Below are positions 5,526 to 62,600 of a DNA stretch of 64,000 nt, in pieces. Where the stretch lies: positions 866,501 to 930,500 of the forward strand of contig NC_087075.1 in the NCBI RefSeq assembly GCF_026151205.1, in the 5' to 3' direction. The stretch comes from Bolinopsis microptera. Taxonomy: Eukaryota; Ctenophora; Tentaculata; Lobata; Bolinopsidae. A model generated the notes under the pieces. The model was not told where the DNA came from, did no database searches, and saw only the letters and a list, made by a program, of their open reading frames with translations. Every line of letters begins with the position of its first letter. The stretch's first letter is position 1. The position numbers were made by a program, and so were the translations under genes.

Positions 5526-5554
5526 AGGAGGAGCAAAGTTCAAAGAAACTGCCA

Positions 5555-6442: not shown

Positions 6443-6690
6443 CTATAGGTAAAAATACAATATTAATCATAAGCTAAAATGTACTAATCTTTGTATTCTA
6501 AATGGGGAAAAGAAGAAACATTGTCAGTCAGTCGAGAAAATTGTCAGTCAGGCTATATGGCAGCTTTGTAGATGTTGTGACAATGCTAGTAGTGGTCCCA
6601 GACTTGCGACTGGAATTGCGGTGTTAAATCGATTTAACGGTATACCAACGATCCACCTCCCACTTGTTATTTGGTACTTAGCATTAATAG

Positions 6691-6820
6691 TTAATTGACG
6701 ATGTCAATTCATGGCAGCTCGGCGCGGCACAGTAGCGCATCTCGCCGATCTAGCTTTGATGTCGCTGTGAGAAGCCTCATTGAGTGCGCGGCGCGGCACA
6801 GTAACGCATCGCGCTACAAC
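6691..6820. mobile_element. 130-bp insertion with 8-bp target duplication
   Basis: Absent from copy 1; flanked by ATTAATAG at 6683-6690 and 6821-6828, present once in copy 1. It contains a 22-bp near-identical internal direct repeat (CGGCGCGGCACAGTA...) at 6720 and 6789. No terminal inverted repeat is obvious. An 8-bp duplication is compatible with a hAT-type MITE, or with a short retroposed fragment. Confidence 0.8.
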
Positions 6821-7129
6821 ATTAATAGTGTTAGCTGTAGCCATTTATAGCAATAATCTTAAAACTAAAGGGGATGACAAGGAAAAGAGGAAGGAAAAAG
6901 AATAACGGAACAAACAATTAATTAAAGTATTTACAGGAGCATTAGTTATTGTAATTACAAGCTTCAATAATAAATCACTGACTAAAACATCTAATTAAAA
7001 TGACACTCGCCCTTTTTCACTGGTCAGTCTGAACTTCGGTTTAGCACGTTGTACACTTATTCACCTAAGTTTCAAATTTTTTTCAGTTTAGCAGAGTTAG
7101 TACCCGTGTTTCAATAAAATCTAAAGATA

Positions 7130-8184: not shown

Positions 8185-8543
8185 CAGGGTGGCCCATAAG
8201 TGACTACCCACACGCAACCTCTTAATAACTCACGTAATTCGTCTCCAAATTGCACCAAAATTTCAGAGATTATAGATATGGGTCAAACTTAGATTTCCTG
8301 AAAGTTTCGTAAGCCACGCCCAATTACAGTGGGCGTGGCGTGACACTCCCTCTTTTTCACTATTGTCTTCATAAAATGAGAACGCTTTAAGCTAAGAACT
8401 CCAAATTTTTTGCACACATTTGGCTTGATAATTGAAAACCTTTCCCAAAGTTTCAAGTTCATTGGTTAAAATATGGCTAAGTTATGACCATTTCAAAACT
8501 CATCGGATACGTGATCCGAGCACTCAGTCAGTGATCTCGTCAC
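8185..8543. repeat. left terminal inverted repeat of mariner-type element
   Basis: Near-perfect inverse complement of 9317-9695, with one extra ~35-bp block in the right arm. It includes the palindrome-like block CCACGCCCAATTACAGTGGG. Confidence 0.88.
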
Positions 8544-10062: not shown

Positions 10063-10065
10063 CTA

Positions 10066-23600: not shown

Positions 23601-26600
23601 GCTAGATCTGGAGCACAAGAAGAGCGATGAGAAACTCAGGTTTTTTAAAATCAAGACACTTATTTTACTTCGGAGTATTCCAACAGCCACATTGTTACAC
23701 AAGTGCAACCAGCCAATTACAGGAAGCCGAAGGATTTGTTTTTAGCCAGTGACGGTTAAGGTAGTGTGTACCATACTTTCTTCGCCCGAGACTTTGCTGC
23801 AATGTGCAGCTCCTCATTTAACCCTCACACCCGATTTCTCGAGTATTCGGCTGAGTAGACCGGGAGGCTGCATAGACCACTCTTGATCCTTAGCTGAACG
23901 TCAACGACGCTCACCCCACGATCAGGCAGACAGTGGAATTTGAACCCGCAACCTCACGATTGCAAAGCTGGCGTTCTAACCAACTGCGCTACCTGGCCAA
24001 AAATTTTATTTTTTAAAGTTTGTAAATTTAAATTTTCTGAAAATTTCCCGTTTTATAAGTACTAAACTGTTTGAATAAGAACTGATTTAATTAAAATTTC
24101 GACCAGGGTACAGAAGGAGGCATTCCGACAAGCGAGCCTGCAGCTTGAAAAAGAGAGCGAACTTAAGGTAGAGAAACTAAACAACCAGACGGATGGTATT
24201 ATTAAGAGGACTGATAAGGAAATAAAGAATTTGAAGAATGAGGAAGCGAACTTGAAGAAGATGATGAACGAGCAGAATGAGGTACACAACAACAAACTCA
24301 CAAGCTGACCCTCGTTATAAACGTACAGGACCCATCTAGCCACCAAATATGGGCATATATGGTTTTTTGCTCATAACTCAGCCAATTTTTGTTCAGGAGA
24401 CCACTAGCTATAATTATAAGTAGAGTACCAACAAGAATTGCGCCCGTTGTTTCGTTTTGGCGGACGCTAGATTTCCATTTCACTATAACTATTAATATAA
24501 GCTCTAATCAGCTCACCTTATAATAATAATATTGAAACATCAGTAGACTACGCGTGCCACATTCAAGTTGGGCTTATTACAAAATACTATACATTACTAG
24601 TATACATTAAAATACTCTCGTGCTGCGCATTCATTGACCACAGACTAGCTATACACCACATCTCCGCAAGCAATCCCCGTGCGCGTGCGCGCGGCAAGTT
24701 GACATGGTAACGAACGGAAGCAAGAACGGAACACGACATATATTTGACCCACCTACCGCTATCTCCAAAATCCACGTTTTTCTGCAAAAACGTCCATTCG
24801 TAACCTTTCACTATTGCCTTTTTTCAAAAGGGTGAAAAGGAAAAAATTTGGGTTTTGAGGTGATATGGCATAATTGGGCAAAAAATTTACCGAATATGGT
24901 AATGGTTGCACCGTGGGTGGTTGGGGTCCGGGACCCCCCCCCCCAACTCAAAAGGTCAGTCACATGCCCTACTATCTCGAAAACGAGTTTCACAAAAAAT
25001 GTTGGGTGAACAAATTAATCAATAAACAAAAAATGCAATTAGACGGGTTTCTGCTAGTACAATTAAGAGTTATAAGACTTGGTTAGCTTAAACAAAATGT
25101 CATGCTAGTTCAAGACAATAGTTTATAGTGTGGTATTCAGGTTGACTAAGTCTCTCTCTCTCTCTAAGATTAAGTATTATATGACAGTTCCTAAGTGAGT
25201 TTCACTTTCACTCTGTCAGGATATAAGACTCACTTTCACTCTGTCAGGATATAAGACTCACAAAGAAGTATCTACACGAGGCACAGAACGAGTTGATAAA
25301 GTATGACGAGTTACAGGACGCTTACAAGATGGTGGTGGAGGAATACCAGAAACTACACAGGGTAAATACACGTGGTGTGACGTCATGACACGTGGTGTGA
25401 CGTCATGACACGTGGTGTAATACACGTGTTATCTTTTAAACTACACAGGGTAAATACACGTGTTATCTTTTAAACTACACAGGGTAAATACACGTGTTAT
25501 CTTTTAAACTACACAGGGTAAATACACGTGTTATCTTTTAAACTACACAGGGTAAATACACGTGTTATCTTTTAAACTACACAGGGTAAATACACGTGTT
25601 ATCTTTTAAACTACACAGGGTAAAAACACGTGTTATCTTTTAAACTACACAGGGTAAATACACGTGTTATCTTTTAAACTACACAGGGTAAATACACGTG
25701 TTATCTTTTAAACTACACGGGGTAAATACACGTGTTATCTTTTAAACTACACGGGGTAAATACACGTGTTATCTTTTAAACTACACAGGGTAAATACACG
25801 TGTTATCTTTTAAACTACACAGGGTAAATACACGTGTTATCTTTTAAACTACACAGGGTAAATACACGTGTTATCTTTTAAACTACACAGGGTAAATACA
25901 CGTGTTATCTTTTAAACTACACAGGGTAAATACACGTGTTATCTTTTAAACTACACAGGGTAAATACACGTGTTATCTTTTAAACTACACAGGGTAAATA
26001 CACGTGTTATCTTTTAAACTACACAGGGTAAATACACGTGTTATCTTTTAAACTACACAGGGTAAATACACGTGTTATCTTTTAAACTACACAGGGTAAA
26101 TACACGTGTTATCTTTTAAACTACACAGGGTAAATACACGTGTTATCTTTTAAACTACACAGGGTAAATACACGTGTTATCTTTTAAACTACACAGGGTA
26201 AATACACGTGTTATCTTTTAAACTACACAGGGTAAATACACGTGTTATCTTTTAAAACTACACAGGGTAAATACACGTGTTATCTTTTAAACTACACAGG
26301 GTAAATACACGTGTTATCTTTTAAACTACACGGGGTAAATACACGTGTTATCTTTTAAACTACACAGGGTAAATACACGTGTTATCTTTTAAACTACACG
26401 GGGTAAATACACGTGTTATCTTTTAAACTACACAGGGTAAATACACGTGTTATCTTTTAAACTACACAGGGTAAATACACGTGTTATCTTTTAAACTACA
26501 CAGGGTAAATACACGTGTTATCTTTTAAACTACACAGGGTAAATACACGTGTTATCTTTTAAACTACACAGGGTAAATACACGTGTTATCTTTTAAACTA

Positions 26601-29600
26601 CACAGGGTAAATACACGTGTTATCTTTTAAACTACACAGGGTAAATACACGTGTTATCTTTTAAACTACACAGGGTAAATACACGTGTTATCTTTTAAAC
26701 TACACAGGGTAAATACACGTGTTATCTTTTAAACTACACAGGGTAAATACACGTGTTATCTTTTAAACTACACAGGGTAAATACACGTGTTATCTTTTAA
26801 ACTACACAGGGTAAATACACGTGTTATCTTTTAAACTACACAGGGTAAATACACGTGTTATCTTTTAAACTACACAGGGTAAATACACGTGTTATCTTTT
26901 AAACTACACAGGGTAAATACACGTGTTATCTTTTAAACTACACAGGGTAAATACACGTGTTATCTTTTAAACTACACAGGGTAAATACACGTGTTATCTT
27001 TTAAACTACACAGGGTAAATACACGTGTTATCTTTTAAACTACACAGGGTAAATACACGTGTTATCTTTTAAACTACACAGGGTAAATACACGTGTTATC
27101 TTTTAAACTACACAGGGTAAATACACGTGTTATCTTTTAAACTACACAGGGTAAATACACGTGTTATCTTTTAAACTACACAGGGTAAATACACGTGTTA
27201 TCTTTTAAACTACACAGGGTAAATACACGTGTTATCTTTTAAACTACACAGGGTAAATACACGTGTTATCTTTTAAACTACACAGGGTAAATACACGTGT
27301 TATCTTTTAAACTACACAGGGTAAATACACGTGTTATCTTTTAAACTACACAGGGTAAATACACGTGTTATCTTTTAAACTACACAGGGTAAATACACGT
27401 GTTATCTTTTAAACTACACAGGGTAAATACACGTGTTATCTTTTAAACTACACAGGGTAAATACACGTGTTATCTTTTAAACTACACAGGGTAAATACAC
27501 GTGTTATCTTTTAAACTACACAGGGTAAATACACGTGTTATCTTTTAAACTACACAGGGTAAATACACGTGTTATCTTTTAAACTACACAGGGTAAATAC
27601 ACGTGTTATCTTTTAAACTACACAGGGTAAATACACGTGTTATCTTTTAAACTACACAGGGTAAATACACGTGTTATCTTTTAAACTACACAGGGTAAAT
27701 ACACGTGTTATCTTTTAAACTACACAGGGTAAATACACGTGTTATCTTTTAAACTACACAGGGTAAATACACGTGTTATCTTTTAAACTACACAGGGTAA
27801 ATACACGTGTTATCTTTTAAACTACACAGGGTAAATACACGTGTTATCTTTTAAACTACACAGGGTAAATACACGTGTTATCTTTTAAACTACACAGGGT
27901 AAATACACGTGTTATCTTTTAAACTACACAGGGTAAATACACGTGTTATCTTTTAAACTACACAGGGTAAATACACGTGTTATCTTTTAAACTACACAGG
28001 GTAAATACACGTGTTATCTTTTAAACTACACAGGGTAAATACACGTGTTATCTTTTAAACTACACAGGGTAAATACACGTGTTATCTTTTAAACTACACA
28101 GGGTAAATACACGTGTTATCTTTTAAACTACACAGGGTAAATACACGTGTTATCTTTTAAACTACACAGGGTAAATACACGTGTTATCTTTTAAACTACA
28201 CAGGGTAAATACACGTGTTATCTTTTAAACTACACAGGGTAAATACACGTGTTATCTTTTAAACTACACAGGGTAAATACACGTGTTATCTTTTAAACTA
28301 CACAGGGTAAATACACGTGTTATCTTTTAAACTACACAGGGTAAATACACGTGTTATCTTTTAAACTACACAGGGTAAATACACGTGTTATCTTTTAAAC
28401 TACACAGGGTAAATACACGTGTTATCTTTTAAACTACACAGGGTAAATACACGTGTTATCTTTTAAACTACACAGGGTAAATACACGTGTTATCTTTTAA
28501 ACTACACAGGGTAAATACACGTGTTATCTTTTAAACTACACAGGGTAAATACACGTGTTATCTTTTAAACTACACAGGGTAAACACACGTGTTATCTTTT
28601 AAACTACACGGGGTAAATACACGTGTTATCTTTTAAACTACACAGGGTAAATACACGTGTTATCTTTTAAACTACACAGGGTAAATACACGTGTTATCTT
28701 TTAAACTACACAGGGTAAATACACGTGTTATCTTTTAAACTACACGGGGTAAATACACGTGTTATCTTTTAACTACACAGGGTAAATACACGTGTTATCT
28801 TTTAAACTACACAGGGTAAATACACGTGTTATCTTTTAAACTACACAGGGTAAATACACGTGTTATCTTTTAAACTACACAGGGTAAATACACGTGTTAT
28901 CTTTTAAACTACACAGGGTAAATACACGTGTTATCTTTTAAACTACACAGGGTAAAATACACGTGTTATCTTTTAAACTACACAGGGTAAATACACGTGT
29001 TATCTTTTAAACTACACAGGGTAAATACACGTGTTATCTTTTAAACTACACAGGGTAAATACACGTGTTATCTTTTAAACTACACAGGGTAAATACACGT
29101 GTTATCTTTTAAACTACACAGGGTAAATACACGTGTTATCTTTTAAACTACACAGGGTAAATACACGTGTTATCTTTTAAACTACACAGGGTAAATACAC
29201 GTGTTATCTTTTAAACTACACAGGGTAAATACACGTGTTATCTTTTAAACTACACAGGGTAAATACACGTGTTATCTTTTAAACTACACAGGGTAAATAC
29301 ACGTGTTATCTTTTAAACTACACAGGGTAAATACACGTGTTATCTTTTAAACTACACAGGGTAAATACACGTGTTATCTTTTAAACTACACAGGGTAAAT
29401 ACACGTGTTATCTTTTAAACTACACAGGGTAAATACACGTGTTATCTTTTAAACTACACAGGGTAAATACACGTGTTATCTTTTAAACTACACAGGGTAA
29501 ATACACGTGTTATCTTTTAAACTACACAGGGTAAACACACGTGTTATCTTTTAAACTACACAGGGTAAATACACGTGTTATCTTTTATTTTTAAACTACA

Positions 29601-32600
29601 CAGGGTAAATACACGTGTTATCTTTTAAACTACACGGGGTAAACACACGTGTTATCTTTTAAACTACCTTACTATGGTTACCATGGTTACTATAGTTACT
29701 ATGGTCACTTTGGTTACTTTGGTTACTATGGTTGCTATGGTTACTATTCTGTACTGACCAGGCAATGGAGGAGAAACAGAGGCAGCACTGTGAAGAACAG
29801 GAGAACATTGACGAGCTAAAAAGATACCGGGAGGAGACATCCGAGGAAAACAAGGTACCTTATCTGCTTCGTAAGGGTTGTAACGAATGTAACGATTATT
29901 CCTCGCAAGTAACACATTCTCGATTTATATTCTAACAGTAACAAATGAAGCTGCTGCTAGTTTCTGTTATTACTGTTTAGCTCTGGCATGGTTAGTACCT
30001 GACACTTGTGTCAGTTGCTAACCATATGGGCGGTTTACAAGCTCATCATTTCATATGCTCCTAGCTATAGTTTAGTTAAACACTTATATTCAAATAATTA
30101 ATCTATTTATTATAAATATAGAGGTTAAGAGATCAGATGGACGAGCTCCATGCTAAGTTTAGTGCGTGTAAGATGAAGCTTGAGAAGGAAGAGAAGAACG
30201 CGAGGAACGCAGCTAAAAGACTTAAAAAGGCTCAACAAAAACTACAGGTTTAATTATTATCATTATATTTAATTATTATTATTATTATATATGGTATTCG
30301 CTAAACATATATTGAATAACCTATTATTGTATGTATTAATGACTACCACTCGTATCTAACTTGAAAACTTGGGGAGTGTGATACGCAAGGAAATATTCGT
30401 TCGCTTCCCCTATTATACCCTTGAAGGTTTCACTTTCAGTTCCAGTTTCACTTTATTGTAACATTAATTTCTCAGGATCAAACGGGCGATTCTCTTGCTG
30501 TGGATAAGAGACACCAAATGAGACAGAGGATGTCTGTGGCAGTACCTATGTTTACTAAAGAGGCTGATCCTTCCCTCGCTCGTTAGTTTCGATTAGACTT
30601 TCACTTTCACTTTAACTTTCACTGTCACTTTCACTTTAACTTTCACTTTCACTTTCACTTTCATTTTCAAGCTAAATTACTGAAATGAGCTTTATAAAAT
30701 TATTAAAATCTATGTGTCTCTCTCGTGAACATAAGTTGAATATTTGAGATATCTCACAAATATTCTCCTTGAATAACAAGACACGGTACACACAGCATAC
30801 CCAAGCAGGTGATTTTAACATTATTTCAGCGACAATTGATACAGAGTTAGAAGACTCGCTGAATGACGAGATCCTTGACTCGGAGAGCAACAACGTGTTG
30901 GAGCTGCAGGAAGAGGTGTGGCGACTACAGGAGGAACTGGACAATCGTAAGTTTCACTTTCACTTTCATGGCTATATATGGCAGGGAAAGGTTTAGTGCT
31001 TTATTTACTACTTCAGTAGCAGGGAGGAGTATACACGATGTAATGTTCATAAAGTTTGTGTGATGGACTATCTAACTGAGGGGGAGGGGGATCTAATTGA
31101 GGGGGAGGGGGATCTAACTGAGGGGGAGGGGGATCTAACTGAGGGGGAGGGGGATCTAACTGGGGGGGAAGGGGGATCTAACTGAGGGGGAGGGGGATCT
31201 AACTGAGGGGGAGGGGGATCTAACTGAGGGGGAGGGGGATCTAACTGAGGGGGATCTAACTGAGGGGGAGGGGGATCTAACTGAGGGGGAGGGGGATCTA
31301 ACTGAGGGGGAGGGGATCTAACTGAGGGGGAGGGGGATCTAACTGAGGGGGAGGGGATCTAACTGAGGGGGAGGGGGATCTAACTGAGGGGAGGGGGATC
31401 TAACTGAGGGGGAGGGGGATCTAACTGAGGGGGAGGGTGATCTAACTGAGGGGGAGGGGATCTAACTGAGGGGGAGGGGATCTAACTGAGGGGGAGGGGG
31501 ATCTAACTGAGGGGAGGGGGATCTAACTGAGGGGGAGGGGGATCTAACTGAGGGGAGGGGGATCTAACTGAGGGGAGGGGGATCTAACTGAGGGGGAGGG
31601 GGATCTAACTGAGGGGGAAGGGGGATCTAACTGAGGGGGAGGGGGATCTAACTGAGGGGGAGGGGATCTAACTGAGGGGGAGGGGGATCTAACTGAGGGG
31701 AGGGGGATCTAACTGAGGGGGAGGGGGATCTAACTGAGGGGGAGGGGGATCTAACTGAGGGGGAGGGGGATCTAACTGAGGGGGATCTAACTGAGGGGGA
31801 GGGGGATCTTACTGAGGGGGAGGGGGATCTAACTGAGGGGGAGGGGGATCTAACTGAGGGGGAGGGGGATCTAATTGAGGGGGAGGGGGATCTAACTGAG
31901 GGGGAGGGGGATCTAACTGATGCTGACCATTAAAGATCTTCTTCTTGATAGAACAAACTTCTCAGAAAATTTCGAGATGGAAAGGTACGGGAGAATACTG
32001 ATGAAACAAGAAGAAGCTCTTGAGAATTACAGGGAAAAAGAGAACAATGGGGAAAACAGTGGTAGGAACCGTATTTACTTTTTATCAGTTATGTTTTAAT
32101 TTATCTTCTAGTTCCATACTGTACAGAGTATGGATGTATTTTATTTTTTATGGATTTTGTTTGATAAAGTTTTAAGTATTCCCTGATATTCACGCTGATA
32201 ATGGGTATATTCACCAGAAGATGCTGCACTGCCCCTAGTTGAAGTGATGGATGTTGGTGAGGTTGGCAGTATGCTACCCGAGCCAGAGGTCACTATTGTC
32301 CAGGTTATTATTATAAACCATATTATCAAAGTTCAAAATATCTGATAAACAGCATAGCTCTCTCAAAAATAAAAGATCCTCAAAAGATATAGCTAAATTT
32401 TCTCGAATGACTTCCATTTAACTTTATCAAGAGCAATGTCCCTCAAGTCTTAAAAATCTGAAATCAAACGTAGAGAATTTGAGATTTTCTTACGTTGTCC
32501 AGATTTTATTTTTAATTGTAGTTGACGAAATGAGATTTACAATTATTAAATTGATTATTATTGAATTGATCATAATATGATAATTGATTAGTTTTGATTA

Positions 32601-35600
32601 GTTAATCAACTTGTATTGAGGAGTTAATTTATAAGGTCATAGAGGTAAGCCGATGACTCATCTGCCAAAATAAATGTGTTTGGCACCCTTTCTATCAACC
32701 AAATATCTTTCAGGAGAGAGTGCTAGAAAGTGCGTTAAAAGGAAATACAGATCAACTTGGCCTTGCAAAAGAGACGATGAAAAGCAAAGAAGAAGAAATA
32801 GAATCATTGATGGCAGAAAAGATTAAGAAAGATGAGGAGATAAAATATTTGATGGAAGAAAAAGAAAATCTACAAGAGAAGTTAGAAAACAAGAATGAGA
32901 AGGAGAAGGAAGAAAAGAAGAGGAAGGAGGAGGAGGAAGAAAAGAAGAGGGGGAAGGAGGAGGAGGAGGACTCGCTGCAATCTCAACTAACATCTTTACA
33001 AGATCAGGTGAGGGGGCTGAGAGGGTATTTACTCACGCTGTAACTGGGCGGCGGGCGCCATCACTGGGCGCTATCACTGGGCGCTATCACTGGATCATTA
33101 TGATTCATGTACTCAGTATCAGTTATAAGATACATGTAAGACTTTATATTATTCAATTATAACCACAAGTTTAGTACAGTTGTATTACAGTACATACTCA
33201 AGCAGTTGATATTATAATCACTTCCTTTTTTTGCAAATGGTTTAACTGCTGTCGTTAGGGGGCGCCACTGCTGCTGTCGTTAGGGGGGCGCCACTGCTGC
33301 TGTCGTTTCTCTCTTTCTACTCACAATATTGTCTTGCTAAATTTGTAATATAGTTTGGAAAACTTAGGTAGCTATCTATAATCACTATTAATCAAGTTAG
33401 CTATCTATAATCAATATTAATCAAGTTAGCTATCTATAATCAGGGTAACCTTGTTTAGTTTGTGTAACTTAATTTCTAAAACAGGTATCATTGTTGAATG
33501 GAACACTAGAACTAAACGCGTCGGAGATAGAATCCCTGGAATCCCAGCTTGAAGAGAACGGACGTGTAATCTCTTCTTATGAAGATAACATCTCTGAGAA
33601 ACAAAGCTTATTAGAACAGGTTTAGTAATAATGGTAGTAGTAGTGAGGGGGGACACAGGGGGGAACACAGAGGGGGGAACACAGAGGGGGGGACACAGGG
33701 GGGAACACAGAGGGGGGGGGGACACAGGGGGGAACACAGAGGGGGGAACACAGAGGGGGGGGGGACACAGGGGGAACACAGAGGGGGGGGGGACACAGAG
33801 GGGGGGACACAGAGGGGGGGGGGGCCGGGGGGACACAGAGGGGGGGGGGGGCGGGGGACACAGAGGTGGGGGGGACACAGATGGGGGGGACACAAAGGGG
33901 GGGGGGACACAGAGGGGGGGGGAGGGCCGGGGGGGGGGGGGCCGGGGGGACACAGAGAGGGGGGACACAGAGGGGGGAGGGGGGACACAGAGGGGGACAC
34001 AGAGGGGGGGGGGACACAGAGGGGGGGCACAGAGGGGGAACCCAGAGGGGGAACCCAGAGGGGGGGACACAGAGGAGGGGGGGCGGGGGGGACACAGAGG
34101 GAGGGACACAGAGGGGGGAGGGGCACAAAGGGGGGAGGGGGGCGGGGGCACAGAGGGGGGGCCGGGAGGACACAGAGGGGGGAGGGGGGACACAGAGGGG
34201 GGGCGGGGGACACAGAGGGGGGGACACAGAGGGGGGGACACAGAGGGGGGGGGCCGGGGGGACACAGAGGGGGGGGGGCGGGGGACACAGAGGTGGGGGG
34301 GACACAGATGGGGGGGACACAAAGGGGGGGGGGGACACAGAGGGGGGAGGGCCGGGGGGGCCGGGGGGACACAGAGAGGGGGGACACAGAGGGGGGAGGG
34401 GGGGACACAGAGGGGGTCACAGAGGGGGGAGGGGGGGACACAGAGGCGGAGGACACAGAGGGGGTCACAGAGGGGGGAGGGGGGGACACAGAGGGGGGAA
34501 CAGAGGGGGACACAGAGGGGGGGGGACACAGAGGGGGGGCACAGAGGGGGAACCCAGAGGGGGAACCCAGAGGGGGGGACACAGAGGAGGGGGGGCGGGG
34601 GGACACAGAGGGAGGGACACAGAGGGGGGAGGGGCACAAAGGGGGGAGGGGGGCGGGGGACACAGAAGGGGGGGGCGGGGGGACACAGAATCTTACTATA
34701 TATAAAGTAAGACGATATTATATATGGATGGATCCGTACCATTTTACTGAAACCACGGCATTAACTTTAACGCGACTTTCAGCAAAAATGTATAGTGAGT
34801 AAACTATAACCCCCTGTATAGTGTATAGTGAGTAAACTATAACCCCCTGTATAGTGAGTAAACTATAACCCCCTGTATAATGAGTAAACTATAACCCCCT
34901 GTATAGTGAGTAAACTATAACCCACTGTATAGTGAGTAAACTATAACCCCCTGTATAGTGAGTAAACTATAACCCCCTGTATAGTGAGTAAACTATAACC
35001 CCCTGTATAGTGAGTAAACTATAACCCCCTGTATAGTGAGTAAACTATAACCCCCTGTATAGTGTATAGTGAGTAAACTATAACCCCCTGTATAGTGAGT
35101 AAACTATAACCCCCTGTTTAGTGAGTAAACTATAACCCCCTGTATAGTGAGTAAACTATAACCCCCTGTATAGTGAGTAAACTATAACCCCCTGTATAGT
35201 GAGTAAACTATAACCCCCTGTTTAGTGAGTAAACTATAACCCCCTGTATAGTGTATAGTGAGTAAACTATAACCCCCTGTATAGTGAGTAAACTATAACC
35301 CCCTGTATAGTGAGTAAACTATAACCCCCTGTATAGTGAATAAACTATAACCCCCTGTATAGTGAGTAAACTATAACCCCCTGTATAGTGAGTAAACTAT
35401 AACCCCCTGTATAGTGAGTAAACTATAACCCCCTGTATAGTGAGTAAACTATAACCCCCTGTATAGTGAGTAAACTATAACCCCCTGTATAGTGAGTAAA
35501 CTAAAACCCCCTGTATAGTGAGTAAACTATAACCCCCTGTATAGTGAGTAAACTATAACCCCCTGTATAGTGAGTAAACTATAACCCTCTGTATAGTGAG

Positions 35601-38600
35601 TAAACTATAACCCCCTGTATAGTGAGTAAACTATAACCCCCTGTATAGTGAGTAAACTATAACCCCCTGTATAGTGAGTAAACTATAACCCCCTGTATAG
35701 TGAGTAAACTATAACCCCCTGTATAGTGAGTAAACTATAACCCCCTGTATAGTGAGTAAACTGTTGCCCCCTGTATAGTGAGTAAACTGTAACCCCCTGT
35801 ATAGTGAGTAAACTGTAACCCCCTGTATAGTGAGTAAACTATAACCCCCTGTATAGTGAGTAAACTATAACCCCCTGTATAGTGAGTAAATTATAACCCC
35901 CTGTATAGTGAGTAAACTATAACCCCCTGTATAGTGAGTAAACTGTAACCCCCTGTATAGCGAGTAAACTGTAACCCCCTTTATAGCGAGTAAACTGTAA
36001 CCCCCTGTATAGTGAGTAAACTATAACCCCCTGTATAGTGAGTAAACTATAACCCCCTGTATAGAGAGTAAACTATAACCCCCTGTATAGTGAGTAAACT
36101 GTAACCCCCTGTATAGTGAGTAAACTATAACCCCCTGTATAGTGAGTAAACTATAACCCCCCTGTATAGTGAGTAAACTGTAACCCCTGTATAGTGAGTA
36201 AACTATAACCCCCTGTATAGTGAGTAAACTATAACCCCCTGTATAGTGAGTAAACTATAACCCCCTGTATAGTGTATAGTGAGTAAATTATAACCCCCTG
36301 TATAGTGAGTAAAATATAACCCCCTGTATAGTGAGTAAACTATAACCCCCTGTATAGTGAGTAAACTATAACCCCCTGTATAGTGAGTAAACTATAACCC
36401 CCTGTATAGTGAGTAAACTATAACCCCCTGTATAGTGAGTAAACTATAACCCCCTGTATAGTGAGTAAACTATAACCCCCTGTATAGTGAGTAAACTATA
36501 ACCCTCTGTATAGTGAGTAAACTATAACCCCCTGTATAGTGAGTAAACTATAACCCCCTGTATAGTGAGTAAACTATAACCCCCTGTATAGTGAGTAAAC
36601 TATAACCCCCTGTATAGTGAGTAAACTATAACCCCCTGTATAGTGAGTAAACTGTTGCCCCCTGTATAGTGAGTAAACTATAACCCCCTGTATAGTGAGT
36701 AAACTATAACCCCCTGTATAGTGAGTAAACTATAACCCCCTGTATAGAGAGTAAACTATAACCCCCTGTATAGTGAGTAAACTGTAACCCCCTGTATAGT
36801 GAGTAAACTTTAACCCCCTGTATAGTGAGTAAACTATAACCCCCTGTATAGTGAGTAAACTATAACCCCCTGTATAGTGAGTAAACTATAACCCCCTGTA
36901 TAGTGAGTAAACTATAACCCCCTGTATAGTGAGTAAAATATAACCCCCTGTATAGCGAGTAAACTGTAACCCCCTGTATAGTGAGTAAACTATAACCCCC
37001 TGTATAGTGAGTAAACTATAACCCCCTGTATAGTGAGTAAACTGTAACCCCTGTATAGTGAGTAAACTATAACCCCCTGTATAGTGAGTAAACTATAACC
37101 CCCTGTATAGTGAGTAAACTATAATCCCCTGTATAGTGTATAGTGAGTAAATTATAACCCCCTGTATAGTGAGTAAACTATAACCCCCTGTATAGTGAGT
37201 AAACTATAACCCCCTGTATAGTGAGTAAACTGTAACCCCCTGTATAGTGAGTAAACTATAACCCCCTGTATAGTGAGTAAACTATAACCCCCTGTATAGT
37301 GAGTAAACTATAACCCCCTGTATAGTGAGTAAACTGTAACCCCTGTATAGTGAGTAAACTATAACCCCCTGTATAGTGAGTAAACTATAACCCCCTGTAT
37401 AGTGTATAGTGAGTAAATTATAACCCCCTGTATAGTGAGCAAACTATAACCCCCTGTATAGTGAGTAAACTGTAACCCCCTGTATAGTGAGTAAACTATA
37501 ACCCCCTGTATAGTGAGTAAACTATAACCCCCTGTATAGTGAGTAAACTATAACCCCCTGTATAGTGAGTAAACTGTAACCCCTGTATAGTGAGTAAACT
37601 ATAACCCCCTGTATAGTGAGTAAACTATAACCCCCTGTATAGTGTATAGTGAGTAAACTATAACCCCCTGTATAGTGAGTAAACTATAACCCCTGTATAG
37701 TGAGTAAACTATAACCCCTGTATAGTGAGTAAACTATAACCCCCTGTATAGTGAGTAAACTATAACCCCCTGTATAGTGAGTAAACTATAACCCCCTGTA
37801 TAGTGAGTAAACTATAACCCTCTGTATAGTGAGTAAACTATAACCCCCTGTATAGTGAGTAAACTATAACCCCCTGTATAGTGAGTAAACTATAACCCCC
37901 TGTATAGTGAGTAAACTATAACCCCCTGTATAGTGAGTAAACTATAACCCCCTGTATAGTGAGTAAACTGTTGCCCCCTGTATAGTGAGTAAACTATAAC
38001 CCCCTGTATAGTGAGTAAACTATAACCCCCTGTATAGTGAGTAAACTATAACCCCCTGTATAGAGAGTAAACTATAACCCCCTGTATAGTGAGTAAATTG
38101 TAACCCCCTGTATAGTGAGTAAACTATAACCCCCTGTATAGTGAGTAAACTATAACCCCCTGTATAGTGAGTAAACTATAACCCCCTGTATAGTGAGTAA
38201 ACTATAACCCCCTGTATAGTGAGTAAACTATAACCCCCTGTATAGTGAGTAAAATATAACCCCCTGTATAGCGAGTAAACTGTAACCCCCTGTATAGTGA
38301 GTAAACTATAACCCCCTGTATAGTGAGTAAACTATAACCCCCTGTATAGTGAGTAAACTGTAACCCCCTGTATAGTGAGTAAACTATAACCCCCTGTATA
38401 GTGAGTAAACTGTAACCCCCTGTATAGCGAGTAAACTGTAACCCCCTGTATAGCGAGTAAACTGTAACCCCCTGTATAGTGAGTAAACTATAACCCCCTG
38501 TATAGTGAGTAAACTATAACCCCCTGTATAGTGAGTAAACTGTAACCCCCTGTATAGTGAGTAAACTATAACCCCTGTATAGTGAGTAAACTATAACCCC

Positions 38601-50600: not shown

Positions 50601-53600
50601 ATATACCTTAACACTGAGGTACTACACATATTTACATATACCTTAACACTGAGGTACTACACATATTTACATATACCTTAACACTGAGGTACTACACATA
50701 TTCACATATACCTTAACACTGAGGTACTACACATATTCACATATACCTTAACACTGAGGTACTACACATATTTACATATACCTTAACACTGAGGTACTAC
50801 ACATATTTACATATACCTTAACACTGAGGTACTACACATATTTACATATACCTTAACACTGAGGTACTACACATATTTACATATACCTTAACACTGAGGT
50901 ACTACACATATTTACATATACCTTAACACTGAGGTACTACACATATTTACATATACCTTAACACTGAGGTACTACACATATTTACATATACCTTAACACT
51001 GAGATACTACACATATTCACATATACACTGAGGTACTACACATATTTACATATACCTTGTTCACAATAGGACTTGGTTTCAGCTTGTTGACATGAAGGAG
51101 TGGTTCTCTTTGAAACTAGACACAGTTGAAAAAGAGAAGACAGAGTTGTCTCTTATAGTCTCTCAAATGAAGCAAGAAAAGGATGAAAGTGAAATTCAGG
51201 TGAAACGTATCGAGGAGAAATTATCTGAGCTGAAGCAAGTTAAAGCTGAAAGTGAAAGTCAGGTGAAACTTCAGGAGAAGAAATTATCTGAGCTGGAGCA
51301 AGATAAGGATGAAAGTGAAATTCAGGTGAAACTTTTGGAGAGGAAACTATCTGAACAGACCCAGGTCAGTATTTGATTGATCGTGAATTAATTTCATCTC
51401 GTCAATCTATTAATATAACAAATAAGTTATTATTTTTTTTAAAGAAACAAAATGTGTATTAAATACTATTTTCAATTACGATCAATCTAAATAGTAGAAC
51501 TGCAATCAATGGGTAATAATCAGGGATAATAGTTAGGTCATCAAATAATTTCTCACATTTCTGTGCAGGAATGTGTTGAAGCAGGTAAGGAATGTGTTGT
51601 CCCAGCCTAAAGAGTTGTAAAGGTAGATGGGCACTACTAGTTAGAGCATATCTAGGTGCCTGTGGGTAGCACTCCATAGTTATCAGTGCTATGACACCGC
51701 TTACCTTACGCTCCTCAATGTACGGCACACTATGCAATACAATATCCATTCAGTCATCGCTACTTGACCTGAAATTGAAGAAATACGATAAAATCAATTG
51801 CAATTCGTCTAGTGTGATCGTTTAAAATGGATGCTCGTATTTCTTCTCTCGAGATCATTGCCGTTTTATTTGAAACAAAATGACATTTTCATTTCATTTG
51901 AATTGTGTTTGTTTTGTTCTATTAGTTAGAGGTTTACTAGGTCTAGTGTAACCCGTATAGATTAGTAGATTCAACATCAGCTTATTGTTTACCATTCATT
52001 ATAAGGTACTGATTGGTAATGCTTTATAAAGTATAAATAGTAGTATAAATACTACTGGATATTATTTATTATATACTACTACACGCATACTACTACACGC
52101 ATACTACTACACGCATACTACTACACGCATACTACTACACGCATACTACTACACGCATACTACTACACGCATACTACTACACGCATACTACAACACACAT
52201 ACTGCTACACGCATACTACTACACGCATACTACTACACGCATACTACTACACGCATACTACTACACGCATACTACTACACGCATACTACTACACGCATAC
52301 TACTACACGCATACTACTACACGCATACTACTACACGCATACTACTACACGCATACTACTACACGCATACTACTACACGCATACTACTACACGCATACTA
52401 CTACACGCATACTACTACACGCATACTACTACACGCATACTACTACACGCATACTACTACACGCATACTACTACACGCATACTACTACACGCATACTACT
52501 ACACGCATACTACTACACGCATACTACTACACGCATACTACTACACGCATACTACTACACGCATACTACTACACACATACTGCTACACGCATACTACTAC
52601 ACGCATACTACTACACGCATACTACTACACGCATACTACTACACGCATACTACTACACGCATACTACTACACACATACTACTACACGCATACTACTACAC
52701 ACATACTGCTACACGCATACTACTACACGCATACTACTACACGCATACTACTACACGCATACTACTACACACATACTACTACACGCATACTACTACACGC
52801 ATACTACTACACGCATACTACTACACGCATACTACTACACGCATACTACTACACACATACTACTACACGCATACTACTACACACATACTACTACACGCAT
52901 ACTACTACACGCATACTACTACACGCATACTACTACACGCATACTACTACACGCATACTACTACACGCATACTACTACACGCATACTACTACACACATAC
53001 TGCTACACGCATACTACTACACGCATACTACTACACGCATACTACTACACGCATACTACTACACGCATACTACTACACGCATACTACTACACGCATACTA
53101 CTACACGCATACTACTACACGCATACTACTACACGCATACTACTACACGCATACTACTACACACATACTGCTACACGCATACTACTACACACATACTGCT
53201 ACACGCATACTACTACACGCATACTACTACACGCATACTGCTACACGCATACTACTACACGCATACTACTACACACATACTGCTACACGCATACTACTAC
53301 ACGCATACTACTACACGCATACTACTACACGCATACTACTACACACATACTACTACACGCATACTACTACACGCATACTACTACACGCATACTACTACAC
53401 GCATACTACTACACGCATACTACTACACACATACTACTACACGCATACTACTACACACATACTACTACACGCATACTACTACACGCATACTACTACACAC
53501 ATACTGCTACACGCATACTACTACACGCATACTACTACACGCATACTACTACACGCATACTACTACACGCATACTACTACACGCATACTACTACACGCAT

Positions 53601-56600
53601 ACTACTACACGCATACTACTACACGCATACTACTACACGCATACTACTACACGCATACTACTACACGCATACTACTACACGCATACTACTACACGCATAC
53701 TACTACACGCATACTACTACACACATACTGCTACACGCATACTACTACACACATACTGCTACACGCATACTACTACACGCATACTACTACACGCATACTG
53801 CTACACGCATACTACTACACGCATACTACTACACGCATACTACTACACGCATACTACTACACGCATACTACTACACGCATACTACTACACGCATACTACT
53901 ACACGCATACTACTACACGCATACTACTACACGCATACTACTACACGCATACTACTACACGCATACTACTACACGCATACTACTACACGCATACTACTAC
54001 ACGCATACTACTACACGCATACTACTACACGCATACTACTACACGCATACTACTACACGCATACTACTACACGCATACTACTACACGCATACTACTACAC
54101 GCATACTACTACACGCATACTACTACACGCATACTACTACATGCATACTACTACACGCATACTACTACACGCATACTACTACACGCATACTACTACACGC
54201 ATACTACTACACGCATACTACTACACGCATACTACTACACGCATACTCTCTCAATATACATTATACTATAATGTTTTTAAAAACTAATTACAACTCTAAA
54301 AATCAATTACATTGATTATGTATCGTTATGGAAATATTTTAAGCGGGTAATAGCCTGTCCAAACCCAGGCTACATAACATGAAAACTTTGTTGTAACTTG
54401 TATGAAAAGCATTAATAGTAGTATAGAGTATAGAGATATTAACTAATAGTTACAAAGAAACAAAGTACCAGTCACGTGACAAGTAATGAGAAGTCACGTG
54501 TCACGTGACAAGTAATGAGAAGTCACGTGACCACGTGACAAGTAATGAGAAGTCACGTGACCACGTGACAAGTAATGAGAAGTCACGTGACCACGTGACA
54601 AGTAATGAGAAGTCACGTGACCACGTGACAAGTAATGAGAAGTCACGTGACCACGTGACAAGTAATGAGAAGTCACGTGACCACGTGACAAGTAATGAGA
54701 AGTCACGTGACCACGTGACAAGTAATGAGAAGTCACGTGACCACGTGACAAGTAATGAGAAGTCACGTGACCACGTGACAAATAATGAGAAGTCACGTGA
54801 CCACGTGACAAGTAATGAGAAGTGCTCTGACAAGCCGTGTACTACTGCTGATTAATGATCTGATATATATAGTATGAGCAATATATTAGTAGCACTATAT
54901 TAGTAGTTTGTGTGTGTTTCACGTGCTTTGCTTTCTAACTCTACTCTTAGTTTTTTAGTGTGTTTGTTAGTGTGTTTGTTATTGTGTTTGTTACTGTGTT
55001 TGTTAGTGTGTTCGTATCTAAATATCTGTTGGTCGTATTGATGAGGAGATATGCGGGTTGTAAGATCTATTTTCAAGGTTTTTATTACACTTTATACTTT
55101 TATACAGTACTAGTAAGTAGTTTCTCCTCTTTATACAAGAGGCAGGGCGGGTAGAGAAGAGTGCGTAATAATAATGATAACCCCAGGAAACAGAAGCAGG
55201 GCGGGTAGAGAAGAGTGCGTAATAATAATGATAACCCCAGGAAACAGAAGCAGGGCGGGTAGAGAAGAGTGCGTAATAATAATGATAACCCCAGGAAACA
55301 GAAGCAGGGCGGGTAGAGAAGAGTGCGTAATAATAATGAAAACCCCAGGAAACAGAAGCAGGGCGGGTAGAGAAGAGTGCGTAATATTAATGATAACCCC
55401 AGGAAACAGAAGCAGGGCGGGTAGAGAAGAGTACGTAACAATAATGATAACCCCAGGAAACAGAAGCAGGGCGGGTAGAGAAGAGTGCGTAATAATAATG
55501 ATAACCCCAGGAAACAGAAGCAGGGCGGGTAGAGAAGAGTGCGTAATAATAATGATAACCCCAGGAAACAGAAGCAGGGCGGGTAGAGAAGAGTGCGTAA
55601 TAATAATGATAACCCCAGGAAACAGAAGCAGGGCGGGTAGAGAAGAGTGCGTAATAATAATGATAACCCCAGGAAACAGATGCAGGGCGGGTAGAGAAGA
55701 GTGCGTAATAATAATGATAACCCCAGGAAACAGAAGCAGGGCGGGTAGAGAAGAGTGCGTAATAATAATGATAACCCCAGAAAACAGAAGCAGGGCGGGT
55801 AGAGAAGAGTGCGTAATAATAATGATAACCCCAGGAAACAGAAGCAGGGCGGGTAGAGAAGAGTGCGTAATAATAATGATAACCCCAGGAAACAGAAGCA
55901 GGGCGGGTAGAGAAGAGTGCGTAATAATAATGATAACCCCAGGAAACAGAAGCAGGGCGGGTAGAGAAGAGTGCGTAATAATAATGATAACCCCAGGAAA
56001 CAGAAGCAGGGCGGGTAGAGAAGAGTGCGTAATAATAATGATAACCCCAGGAAACAGAAGCAGGGCGGGTAGAGAAGAGTGCGTAATAATAATGATAACC
56101 CCAGGAAACAGAAGCAGGGCGGGTAGAGAAGAGTGCTTAATAATAATGATAACCCCAGGAAACAGAAGCAGGGCGGGTAGAGAAGAGTGCGTAATAATAA
56201 TGATAACCCCAGGAAACAGAAGCAGGGCGGGTAGAGAAGAGTGCGTAATAATAATGGTAACCCCAGGAAACAGAAGCAGGGCGGGTAGAGAAGAGTGCGT
56301 AATAATAATGATAACCCCAGGAAACAGAAGCAGGGCGGGTAGAGAAGAGTGCTTAATAATAATGATAACCCCAGGAAACAGAAGCAGGGCGGGTAGAGAA
56401 GAGTGCGTAATAATAATGATAACCCCAGGAAACAGAAGCAGGGCGGGTAGAGAAGAGTGCGTAATAATAATGATAACCCCAGGAAACAGAAGCAGGGCGG
56501 GTAGAGAAGAGTGCGTAATAATAATGATAACCCCAGGAAACAGAAGCAGGGCGGGTAGAGAAGAGTGCGTAATAATAATGATAACCCCAGGAAACAGAAG

Positions 56601-59600
56601 CAGGGCGGGTAGAGAAGAGTGCGTAATAATAATGATAACCCCAGGAAACAGAAGCAGGGCGGGTAGAGAAGAGTGCGTAATAATAATGATAACCCCAGGA
56701 AACAGAAGCAGGGCGGGTAGAGAAGAGTGCGTAATAATAATGATAACCCCAGGAAACAGAAGCAGGGCGGGTAGAGAAGAGTGCGTAATAATAATGATAA
56801 CCCCAGGAAACAGAAGCAGGGCGGGTAGAGAAGAGTGCGTAATAATAATGATAACCCCAGGAAACAGAAGCAGGGCGGGTAGAGAAGAGTGCGTAATAAT
56901 AATGATAACCCCAGGAAACAGAAGCAGGGCGGGTAGAGAAGAGTGCGTAATAATAATGATAACCCCAGGAAACAGAAGCAGGGCGGGTAGAGAAGAGTGC
57001 GTAATAATAATGATAACCCCAGGAAACAGAAGCAGGGCGGGTAGAGAAGAGTGCGTAATAATAATGATAACCCCAGGAAACAGAAGCAGGGCGGGTAGAG
57101 AAGAGTGCGTAATAATAATGATAACCCCAGGAAACAGAAGCAGGGCGGGTAGAGAAGAGTGCGTAATAATAATGATAACCCCAGGAAACAGAAGCAGGGC
57201 GGGTAGAGAAGAGTGCGTAATAATAATGATAACCCCAGGAAACAGAAGCAGGGCGGGTAGAGAAGAGTGCGTAATAATAATGATAACCCCAGGAAACAGA
57301 AGCAGGGCGGGTAGAGAAGAGTGCGTAATAATAATGATAACCCCAGGAAACAGAAGCAGGGCGGGTAGAGAAGAGTGCGTAATAATAATGGTAACCCCAG
57401 GAAACAGAAGCAGGGCGGGTAGAGAAGAGTGCGTAATAATAATGATAACCCCAGGAAACAGAAGCAGGGCGGGTAGAGAAGAGTGCGTAATAATAATGAT
57501 AACCCCAGGAAACAGAAGCAGGGCGGGTAGAGAAGAGTGCGTAATAATAATGATAACCCCAGGAAACAGAAGCAGGGCGGGTAGAGAAGAGTGCGTAATA
57601 ATAATGATAACCCCAGGAAACAGAAGCAGGGCGGGTAGAGAAGAGTGCGTAATAATAATGATAACCCCAGGAAACAGAAGCAGGGCGGGTAGAGAATAGT
57701 GCGTAATAATAATGATAACCCCAGGAAACAGAAGCAGGGCGGGTAGAGAAGAGTGCGTAATAATAATGATAACCCCAGGAAACAGAAGCAGGGCGGGTAG
57801 AGAAGAGTGCGTAATAATAATGATAACCCCAGGAATCAGAAGCAGGGCGGGTAGAGAAGAGTGCGTAATAATAATGATAACCCCAGGAAACAGAAGCAGG
57901 GCGGGTAGAGAATAGTGCGTAATAATAATGATAACCCCAGGAAACAGAAGCAGGGCGGGTAGAGAAGAGTGCGTAATAATAATGATAACCCCAGGAAACA
58001 GAAGCAGGGCGGGTAGAGAAGAGTGCGTAATAATAATGATAACCCCAGGAAACAGAAGCAGGGCGGGTAGAGAAGAGTGCGTAATAATAATGATAACCCC
58101 AGGAAACAGAAGCAGGGCGGGTAGAGAAGAGTGCGTAATAATAATGATAACCCCAGGAAACAGAAGCAGGGCGGGTAGAGAAGAGTGCGTAATAATAATG
58201 ATAACCCCAGGAAACAGAAGCAGGGCGGGTAGAGAAGAGTGCGTAATAATAATGATAACCCCAGGAAACAGAAGCAGGGCGGGTAGAGAAGAGTGCGTAA
58301 TAATAATGATAACCCCAGGAAACAGAAGCAGGGCGGGTAGAGAATAGTGCGTAATAATAATGATAACCCCAGGAAACAGAAGCAGGGCGGGTAGAGAAGA
58401 GTGCGTAATAATAATGATAACCCCAGGAAACAGAAGCAGGGCGGGTAGAGAAGAGTGCGCTAGCGGACGAACTAGCCAGCACACAGAATATGTTAGCTGA
58501 AACTAGTAACCAGTTAGAAGAAGCAGTAGCTCACAGGCACAAGGAGAAGGGAGAGCTGGAGCACATTCTGGACAGTAAGGAAGGGGAAATAGAAACTCTC
58601 AAATCTCACCTAGATCAGGTTCGTTATATTTATTCCAGGTTATATAGTAGTTGTAATAGTGAACCTGGTTAGTAACCAGGTTAGTAACCTAGTTAGTAAC
58701 CAGGTTAGTAATCTACACGAGAACAGTATCTTTAACAGTGTTAACTGTTACTATATATCTACTACTAACAGTGTTTAAAATGTGCAGGTGGAGAATGATT
58801 ACGAGGCTTTGGTAGACTCTCTCAACAAGGAAACGGATAATAGGGTGTCAGAACTGCAGAACCAATTAGAGGTAACATTAACTAGAGGGGATGGGGACTA
58901 TCATCACTACTATCACAGCTATATTTCACCTTTATCACAGCTATATTTCACTATAATCACCGTTATATTTCACTATTATCACCACTATATTTCACTATTA
59001 CCACCACTATATTTCACTATTACCGCCACTATATTTCACTATTATCACCACTTTATTTCACTATTACCACCACTATATTTCACTATTACCACCACTATAT
59101 TTCACTATTACCACCACTATGTTTCACTATTACCACCACTATGTTTCACTATTACCACCACTATATTTCACTATTACCACCACTATATTTCACTATTACC
59201 ACCACTATATTTCACTATTACCACCACTATATTTCACTATTACCACCACTATATTTCACTATTACCACCACTATATTTCACTATAACCACCACTATATTT
59301 GACTATTACCACCACGTGTACTAATAATATATCAGACTGCTCTGCAGGAGACAGCAGGAGACATCAGCTCACTAAAATCCCAGCTAAAGGATTTAGGACA
59401 GCAACTAGTAGTTTTATCAGGTGAAAGGGAGAGGTTCTACAACGACAACTGTAAACTGAGAGTAGATAATGAGCGGTTGGGAGAGGAGAAAGAGTTGCTA
59501 ATTACTAAGGTTACTATGGTTACTAATTACTAAGGTTTATAATAGCTACTTATTACTAAGGTTTATAATAGCTACTTATTACTAGGGTTTATAATAGCTA

Positions 59601-62600
59601 CTTATTACTAAGGTTTATAATAGCTACTTATTACTAAGGTTTATAATAGCTACTTATTACTAAGGTTTATAATAGCTACTATTACTAAGGTTTATAATAG
59701 CTACTTATTACTAAGGTTAATAATAGCTACTTATTACTAAGGTTTATAATAGCTACTTATTACTAAGGTTTATAATAGCTACTTATTACTAAGGTTTATA
59801 ATAGCTACTTATTACTAAGGTTTATAATAGCTACTTATTACTAAGGTTTATAATAGCTACTATTACTAAGGTTTATAATAGCTACTTATTACTAAGGTTT
59901 ATAATAGCTACTTATTACTAAGGTTTATAATAGCTACTATTACTAAGGTTTATAATAGCTACTTATTACTAAGGTTTATAATAGCTACTTATTACTAAGG
60001 TTTATAATAGCTACTTATTACTAAGGTTTATAATAGCTACTTATAACTAAGGTTTATAATAGCTACTAATTACTAAGGTTTATAATAGCTACTATTACTA
60101 AGGTTTATAATAGCTACTTATTACTAAGGTTTATAATAGCTACTTATTACTAAGGTTTATAATAGCTACTTATTACTAAGGTTTATAATAGCTACTTATT
60201 ACTAAGGTTTATAATAGCTACTTATTACTAAGGTTTATAATAGCTACTTATTACTAAGGTTTATAATAGCTACTTATTACTAAGGTTTATAACAGCTACT
60301 TATTACTAAGGTTTATAATAGCTACTTATTGCTAAGGTTTATAAATGATGTAGGTATGGCGTAGGTATGACGTAGGTATTATGTAGGTATGATGTAGGTA
60401 TGACATAGGTATGACGTATGTATGACGTAGGTATGACGTAGGTATGACGTATGTATGACGTAGGTATGATGTAGGTATGATGCAGGTATGACGTCACCCC
60501 CTCCCACAGGTGGAAGAGGTGAAAGCAGTGAGGGACACACTGGAGCTGGATATAGAGCAACAGGTAGCAGAATATCAGGACATGATGAAGTGCTGCGCTA
60601 ATCTACAGCAGCAGAACATGGTAAATTATTGTTTATCAGTTATATTAGGGGCCATATACTTAGGACGTCCGCAAAAATCGCAGATTTTCAGACCACCCCC
60701 TCCCCCTGTCCGGGTGTGTCCGAATTTTCAAAACCACCCCCCCCCCCCCCCAGCTACTTTTAAGAGTTATTTAGTTGCTAATTAGTTGGTTAATTAGTTA
60801 GTTTCTGTTTTTAGTAGGTGCCGCATTTATTTTCCTGTTTATTGTGCTATGCTATGTATATTAATTAGTGTAATAAGTGTGTTGTCCCCCTCCCCCTCCC
60901 CCTCCCCCTCCCCTCCCCCTCCCCCTCCTCCTCCCCCTCCCCCTCCCCCTCCCCGTGGTCCTTGTATATAGGACTCTCATCAGCAATTCTCAAGGAAGTT
61001 TAGTTGTTGTTTTTAAATATTATATGAGATGAACAAAGTTATCATCACGGCTTTTACAACCCATAAAATGAAGCTTAATAATTAAAGAGATGAAGTTTGT
61101 AGGTGTTGATATTTCTTGATTTTCAGAGTTCTTCGTCCTGTTTTCAGTCCCTGAAAGTAAGTGCTTTGCAGCTCCTTTAGTATTTTCAGCTACTTTAGTA
61201 TTTTCAGCTACTTTGCTATTTTCAGCAACTTTAGTATTTTCAGCAACTTTAGTATTTTCAGCTACTTAAGTATTTTCAGCTACTTTAGTATTTTCAGCTA
61301 CTTTATTATTTTCAGCTACTTTAGTATTTTCAGCTACTTTAGTATTTTCAGCTACTTTAGTATTTTCAGCTACTTTAGTATTTTCAGCTACTTTAGTATT
61401 TTCAGCTACTTTAGTATTTTCAGCTACTTTAGTATTTTCAGCTACTTTATTATTTTCATCTACTTTAGTATTTTCAGCTACTTTAGTATTTTCAGCTACT
61501 TTGCTATTTTCAGCAACTTTAGTATTTTCAGCTACTTTAGTATTTTCAGCTACTTTAGTATTTTCAGCTACTTTAGTATTTTCAGCTACTTCAGTATTTT
61601 CAGCTACTTCAGTATTTTCAGCTACTTTAGTATTTTCAGCTACTTTAGTATTTTCAGCTACTTTAGTATTTTCAGCTACTTTAGTATTTTCAGCTACTTT
61701 AGTATTTTCAGCTACTTTAGTATTTTCAGCTACTTTATTATTTTCATCTACTTTAGTATTTTCAGCTACTTTAGTATTTTCAGCTACTTTAGTATTTTCA
61801 GCTACTTTAGTATTTTCAGCTACTTAAGTATTTTCAGCTACTTCAGTATTTTCAGCTACTTCAGTATTTTCAGCTACTTTAGTATTTTCAGCTACTTTAT
61901 TATTTGCAGCTACTTTAGTATTTTCAGCTACTTCAGTATTTTCAGCTACTTTATTATTTGCAGCTACTTTAGTATTTTCAGCTACTTTAGTATTTTCAGC
62001 TACTTTAGTATTTTCAGCTCCTTTAGTTTTTTCAGCTACTTTAGTATTTTCAGCTACTTAAGTATTTTCAGCTACTTCAGTATTTTCAGCTACTTTAGTA
62101 TTTTCAGCTGCTTTATTATTTTCAGCTGCTTTAGTATTTGCAGCTACTTTAGTATTTTCAGCTACTTCAGTATTTTCAGCTACTTTATTATTTTCAGCTA
62201 CTTTAGTATTTTCAGCTACTTCAGTATTTTCAGCTACTTTAGTATTTTCAGCTACTTTGCTATTTTCAGCAACTTTAGTATTTTCAGCTACTTTAGTATT
62301 TTCAGCTACTTTAGTATTTTCAGCTACTTTAGTATTTTCAGCTACTTCAGTATTTTCAGCTACTTTAGTATTTTCAGCTACTTTAGTATTTTCAGCTACT
62401 TCAGTATTTTCAGCTACTTTAGTATTTTCAGCTACTTTAGTATTTTCAGCTACTTTATTATTTTCATCTACTTTAGTATTTTCAGCTACTTTAGTATTTT
62501 CAGCTACTTTAGTATTTTCAGCTACTTTAGTATTTTCAGCTACTTTATTATTTTCAGCTACTTTAGTATTTTCAGCTACTTCAGTATTTTCAGCTACGCA

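Follow-up and report, generated by a model that had tools for sequence, protein, structure and literature searches.

Minisatellites across splice junctions of a ninein-like gene in the comb jelly Bolinopsis microptera

Analysis of a 64,000-nucleotide window of the Bolinopsis microptera genome (contig NC_087075.1, positions 866501-930500; assembly GCF_026151205.1, 264.65 Mb in 232 contigs) revealed a gene in which minisatellites make up 81% of the intron length, with repeat arrays that run across exon-intron borders and copy the splice signals. The gene encodes a coiled-coil protein, annotated by NCBI as 'ninein-like [Bolinopsis microptera]'. These arrays belong to the kind named 'mirages' in lancelets, at an unusual scale. 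Junction spanning as such is close to what short introns yield, though this gene may show a twofold excess. The bias towards junctions seems to arise with array growth and not with nucleation, clearly so in ten comparison loci and under one of two null models in the window gene. As to their origin, we lean towards ordinary tandem duplication that was tolerated through exon-proximal splicing and followed by expansion up to the splice signals.

Arrays at the splice junctions of the ninein-like gene

Tandem Repeats Finder (TRF) detected 34 arrays across the 23 introns of the gene. Eight of them overlap a splice junction (Table 1), four at donors (46640, 47573, 50455 and 59509) and four at acceptors (25248, 46542, 48875 and 58427). 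Seven of these eight extend at least 6 nt into the local exon, and all eight units differ from one another. Two further arrays, one of 34 bp after donor 25361 and one of 49 bp after donor 48971, contain junction sequence and start deeper in the intron. The original prediction, made from the sequence before any comparison, held that arrays begin or end exactly at junctions. The association stands for these ten arrays, but the overlaps of the eight range from 2 to 33 nt and are thus inexact. Its claim of independent expansions at many junctions was borne out, as the units differ and the pattern recurs in other genes.

Three of the individual arrays required revision. The 34 bp array was placed at a 5' site, and indeed the donor 14-mer TACACAGG/GTAAAT (a slash marks the splice site) occurs in 114 exact copies within 25202-29700, although TRF starts the array 57 bp into the intron; a 20 bp repeat interrupts its junction-proximal copy, and 111 of its 125 units are perfect. 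By eye, the array described as ~55 bp at donor 48971 does have ~15 nt in common with the junction, but its unit is 49 bp in 5.2 copies, beginning 51 bp into the intron. The 26 bp array of 441 copies, attributed to a 5' site, actually ends at acceptor 46542. This acceptor was proposed by the gene finder prior to comparison with the NCBI record, and agrees with the NCBI protein.

Exact copies of the authentic signals were counted over the junction and the array stretch, the authentic site included. In addition to donor 25361, the 14-mer of donor 50455 is present in 17 exact copies, and the acceptor 12-mers in 395 (46542), 58 (58427), 28 (48875) and 2 (25248) copies. At donors 46640, 47573, 48971 and 59509 the 9-mer is present just 1-4 times, indicating that most copies there have drifted. 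According to the annotated NCBI protein, the exon-proximal sites are used, and no array is read beyond the unit adjoining the exon.

The exon model comprises 24 joined exons (22793..63077, plus strand) that match 1084 residues of the NCBI protein identically, and further exons lie upstream, from ~14594. The first model had 25 exons in a single open frame. The assembled protein was 99% identical to the NCBI sequence, and four changes were fitted to the NCBI record: acceptors 48875 and 58427, the added exon 61127-61156, and the dropped exon at 51569. The latter, of 16 nt, and a 12-nt exon (34783-34794) ahead of the 26 bp array were rejected, neither being found in the NCBI protein. A Pfam search with the protein of the first model (1072 aa) returned no families. 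Only two arrays of the gene are wholly exonic; they form in-frame repeats within coiled-coil exons, with units of 27 bp (32901-32967) and 63 bp (51168-51354), both multiples of 3.

Other repeats were also observed in the window. A stretch of ~1 kb of degenerate G-rich repeats (33645-34690), which from its sequence might form quadruplexes, lies 25 bp downstream of donor 33619. The intron 48972-50402 harbors a piece of a dispersed repeat (50001-50336) found at 92-100% identity in at least 40 genomic places, itself included. Upstream, long reading frames resembling reverse transcriptases of mobile elements occupy 2122-4134, 7130-8229 (minus strand) and 10063-12363; by eye, the frame at 2122 has sequence in common with the minus-strand frames at 7130-8229.

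Table 1. Junction-associated arrays and exons of the ninein-like gene (window positions; exon numbers are those of the 24-exon model; a slash marks the splice site)
Feature	Position	Strand	Basis
28 bp x2.1 duplication over 3' splice site 25248, 14 exon nt	25202..25261	+	TRF, exon model
20 bp x2.5 then 34 bp x124.8, derived from 5' splice site 25361; unit contains AAACTACACAGG/GTAAATACACG	25368..29667	+	
26 bp x441.3 ending on 3' splice site 46542, 2 exon nt; unit contains AAACTATAACCCCCTGTATAG/TG	34822..46543	+	
22 bp x6.9 over 5' splice site 46640, 16 exon nt	46625..46776	+	TRF, exon model
43 bp x2.6 over 5' splice site 47573, 8 exon nt	47566..47675	+	TRF, exon model
33 bp x33 over 3' splice site 48875, 6 exon nt (NCBI model); unit contains CTAAT and TATTATAG/CTGCA	47791..48880	+	
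49 bp x5.2 with GG/GTAAGTGAGAGAC of 5' splice site 48971, 51 bp into intron (weaker case)	49023..49279	+	TRF, sequence
35 bp x18.1 over 5' splice site 50455, 12 exon nt	50444..51058	+	
54 bp x61.5 over 3' splice site 58427, 33 exon nt (NCBI model)	55138..58459	+	
26 bp x32.7 over 5' splice site 59509, 9 exon nt	59501..60344	+	TRF, exon model
18 bp x79.6 beginning 8 bp past donor 61156	61165..62597	+	TRF, exon model
Exons 1-6	22793-22920, 23233-23384, 23499-23639, 24107-24281, 25248-25361, 29762-29854	+	identity to NCBI protein
Exons 7-12	30122-30247, 30476-30581, 30830-30946, 31966-32061, 32218-32303, 32714-33007	+	identity to NCBI protein
Exons 13-18	33485-33619, 46542-46640, 47451-47573, 48875-48971, 50403-50455, 51083-51364	+	identity to NCBI protein
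Exons 19-24	58427-58618, 58788-58871, 59348-59509, 60510-60620, 61127-61156, 62820-63077	+	identity to NCBI protein

Junction overlap, chance and array size

For comparison with chance, each array was collapsed to one unit and a segment of unit length was placed randomly on the intron, with overlap into exons permitted. The array either stayed in its own intron (conditional null) or was placed on the merged introns (pooled null). We excluded TRF periods below 9 and, where rows overlapped, the one with the lower score, as well as exons with scores below 10 in the ten comparison loci and arrays with fewer than 5 intron bases; the last filter eliminated a single array, of 10 bp, at acceptor 59348. 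For the window gene, an overlap of 8/34 compares with 6.9 expected under the conditional null (P=0.37) and 4.3 under the pooled null (P=0.054). With the two sequence-derived arrays included, it rises to 10/34 (P=0.10 and P=0.007, respectively). The introns have a median length of ~200 bp with the arrays excluded, so that a randomly placed unit of 20-50 bp often overlaps a junction. A plain claim of enrichment at junctions was rejected, because its outcome varies with the null and with array size.

The ten comparison loci consist of dynein and myosin exons from Pfam hidden Markov model (HMM) searches, each chosen before its arrays were known. The gene finder was exact on 36 donors and 37 acceptors among 40 HMM-anchored introns, on which it had partly been trained. 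The outer-exon junctions at 9616 of locus L035 and 248 of locus L034 have no intron row and were left uncounted. In these loci, one of the 51 arrays overlaps a junction (expected 2.7-3.5). In addition, 20 random 10-kb stretches yielded 62 predicted exons, some of which appear by eye to be mobile-element or low-complexity sequence; 9 of their 124 exon edges lie within 20 bp of an array, a sample too noisy to serve as a test.

Sorting the arrays of the ten loci by copy number revealed a contrast. Within 10 bp of a junction, arrays of fewer than 6 copies show no bias (3/41, expected 3.3-4.8), compared to 6/10 for arrays of at least 6 copies (expected 0.7-0.9, P<1e-4 under both nulls). One of these six depends on donor 3169 of L034, which was placed manually from the dynein motif; with the gene finder's own donor, the count is 5/10 (P 1e-4 to 1e-3), and without L034 it is 3/7 (expected 0.24-0.65, P 0.001-0.02). 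Within 20 bp, large arrays again give 6/10 (expected 1.0-1.2). Adding a further locus, L020, makes 7/13 of the arrays with at least 6 copies near a junction. In the window gene, 4/17 small arrays (expected 3.0-3.2) and 7/17 large arrays lie within 10 bp, the latter against 6.8 expected under the conditional null (P=0.56) or 3.2 under the pooled null (P=0.026). To our knowledge, a size-dependent junction bias has not been tested elsewhere before.

These data bear on whether splice junctions seed the arrays. In one such scenario, breaks or R-loops at junctions would nucleate tandem duplications, in line with ten junction-derived arrays in a single gene at the pooled P value given above. Eight donors moreover have arrays carrying 5-16 exon nt (six in the window gene and L035, two in L020), a range noticed post hoc. 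Nevertheless, we regard junction-directed nucleation as unlikely. Seeding at junctions should show among the small, presumably younger arrays, and these are unbiased within 10 bp in the ten loci and close to expectation in the window gene. The exon share of 12 hand-entered spanning units is compatible with uniform, that is random, placement (Kolmogorov-Smirnov P=0.16), and the conditional null leaves the overlap insignificant with either count of arrays. The earlier argument that slippage alone is insufficient for the bias is not borne out for nucleation. Among arrays of at least 6 copies, a bias is present in the ten loci and, depending on the null, in the window gene, so large arrays may grow, or be tolerated, preferentially at junctions.

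Junction arrays were found in dynein, myosin and WD40 genes of the same genome. A dynein donor in L035 bears a 30 bp x4.1 array that includes 12 exon nt (TCATGGCGCAGG/GTAAGT), and a 26 bp x86 array in L031 stops 1 bp from a dynein acceptor. A 48 bp duplication in L029 begins at intron base 2, and a 20 bp x2.2 array in L033 overlaps a donor by one base. L020, one of the random stretches, was hand-curated after its arrays were seen and is excluded from the key size test; it contains a WD40 gene with eight exons in a single open frame. Its donor 563 carries a 21 bp x6.3 array that takes in 11 exon nt; a 24 bp x5.6 array stops 3 bp short of the acceptor that follows. A third array, 21 bp x3, lies over donor 2975. 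Two homologs align without gaps across junction 563/866.

Several features of these loci were noted in passing. Four arrays that end no more than 12 bp from an acceptor (L031 5201-7433, L034 907-959 and 2354-2596, and L029 5436-5543) have a branch-point-like CTAAT in their consensus unit, whereas another such array (L030 1164-1211) lacks it. By eye, L020 carries a block of ~45 bp twice, at 2677-2721 and 2818-2862; the block includes an acceptor together with 29 exon nt, and an 11 bp array separates its two copies. Across the L034 dynein intron from 3169 to 7932 the reading frame fails to join, possibly owing to a base error or a missed exon.

A proposed origin by tolerated duplication and array growth

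We propose that local tandem duplications of ~10-60 bp would occur throughout the gene. Exonic ones would mostly be purged unless in frame, whereas intronic or border-crossing ones could persist, the latter because the spliceosome would take the first donor or the last acceptor and leave the mRNA unchanged. With introns this short outside the arrays, a sizeable fraction of random duplications would cross a border. Many-copy arrays might then lengthen by unequal exchange or slippage, deleting single-copy intron sequence, until halted only by the sequence required at the splice site, such that large arrays would end up against the borders. The periods of the two exonic arrays fit the removal of frame-breaking duplications, although their number is small. 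Introns that collapse to less than 90 bp are more frequent among those with arrays (8/54) than among array-free ones (1/42; Fisher P=0.038), which fits intron consumption.

Several observations weigh against this proposal. The median collapsed length is 342 for introns with arrays and 217 for array-free introns (P=0.18); the medians run the opposite way, leaving the short tail alone in support of intron consumption. The window gene has 4.3 arrays per collapsed kb compared to 1.3 elsewhere, and its overlap is in roughly twofold excess under the pooled null if the sequence-derived arrays are counted. Regarding the size dependence, the 6-copy threshold was picked post hoc, and a single dynein gene supplies three of the six large arrays near junctions, including the one with the hand-set donor. 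Within 20 bp, the small arrays of the ten loci number 8/41 against 6.5 (P 0.29) or 4.5 (P 0.075) expected. Moreover, under the conditional null the window gene shows no contrast between small and large arrays.

A dependence on size could also reflect junction-linked growth. It is doubtful that minisatellite expansion, as opposed to nucleation, is coupled to splice junctions through a splicing- or transcription-linked process, such that reaching tens or hundreds of copies is far commoner for junction arrays than for mid-intron ones. As an account of the present arrays, a splicing- or transcription-coupled process that extends those already sitting at splice sites, irrespective of their origin, agrees with the confinement of the bias to arrays of at least 6 copies in the ten loci and with the involvement of 5' and 3' sites alike. 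We consider it rather unlikely, as encroachment with a selective stop yields the same pattern and needs no new process.

That authentic sites occur in up to hundreds of intact copies might suggest that selection favours reserve splice sites, or arrays acting as splicing enhancers. However, homogenisation by itself keeps copies alike, and few-copy arrays, which would suffice to provide a spare site, show no enrichment, making such selection very improbable. We likewise give little credence to growth from dispersed motifs or mobile elements inserting at AG/GT. The 9-mer GGTTACTAT does recur beside junctions and elsewhere in introns that are unrelated, either as an array or as a lone copy (window 29669-29747 and 59509-59524; L035 826-938 and 2854-2943; L030 1761-1786); two of these occurrences lie within 4 bp of a donor. 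By contrast, the local exon sequence in seven of the eight spanning arrays and the mutual differences among the eight units argue for derivation from the local junction.

Whether junction bias arises at the start of an array or during its growth is a measurable question. The arrays offer a possible route for intron growth without protein change. Two introns, one holding more than 100 copies of a single donor and the other ~400 copies of a single acceptor sequence, provide a natural test of exon-proximal site choice.

Comparison with known systems

Ordinary intronic minisatellites as a class have a similar unit size, high copy identity and a capacity to expand in non-coding DNA; the units described here differ in that they include exon ends and splice sites. 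Introner-like elements consist of a near-identical sequence copied into many introns. Apart from the recurring 9-mer, the eight spanning units differ from one another and do not resemble such elements, in a comparison made without a genome-wide search with the units.

In the Rogers model, an AGGT segment is duplicated in tandem and an intron is thereby gained, with examples in ATP2A1, fission yeast and potato RdRp (PMC4974935). Both cases involve a tandem duplication that copies splice signals. However, in the Rogers model the duplication makes a new intron (PMC4974935), whereas the present arrays lie in or across introns.

The closest counterparts are the mirages of lancelets, tandem repeats over exon-intron borders in the Adh3, globin, TnC and PGBD5 genes (PMC3087553, PMC3902484). 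The original prediction knew of no described process producing such a pattern; the phenomenon had in fact been described in these reports, which call its mechanism unclear. There, regular splicing is reported to be undisturbed and the clusters to be unstable in length, and their origin is likewise termed unclear (PMC3087553). Mirages span 5' or 3' borders and copy the splice signals, with units from 10-72 bp in Adh3 to ~160 bp in the globins (PMC3087553, PMC3902484). Similarly, eight TRF arrays of the ninein-like gene span exon-intron boundaries, at four 5' and four 3' sites and with eight distinct units, as do arrays in L020 and L035. The duplicated ~45 bp block of L020 resembles the long-unit mirages of amphioxus globins. 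No report of such arrays in comb jellies was found among the open-licence papers searched. Altogether, our findings add a comb jelly to the lancelets in which mirages are described; here, unlike in amphioxus, the arrays reach up to 441 copies and 11.7 kb and occupy many junctions of a single gene.

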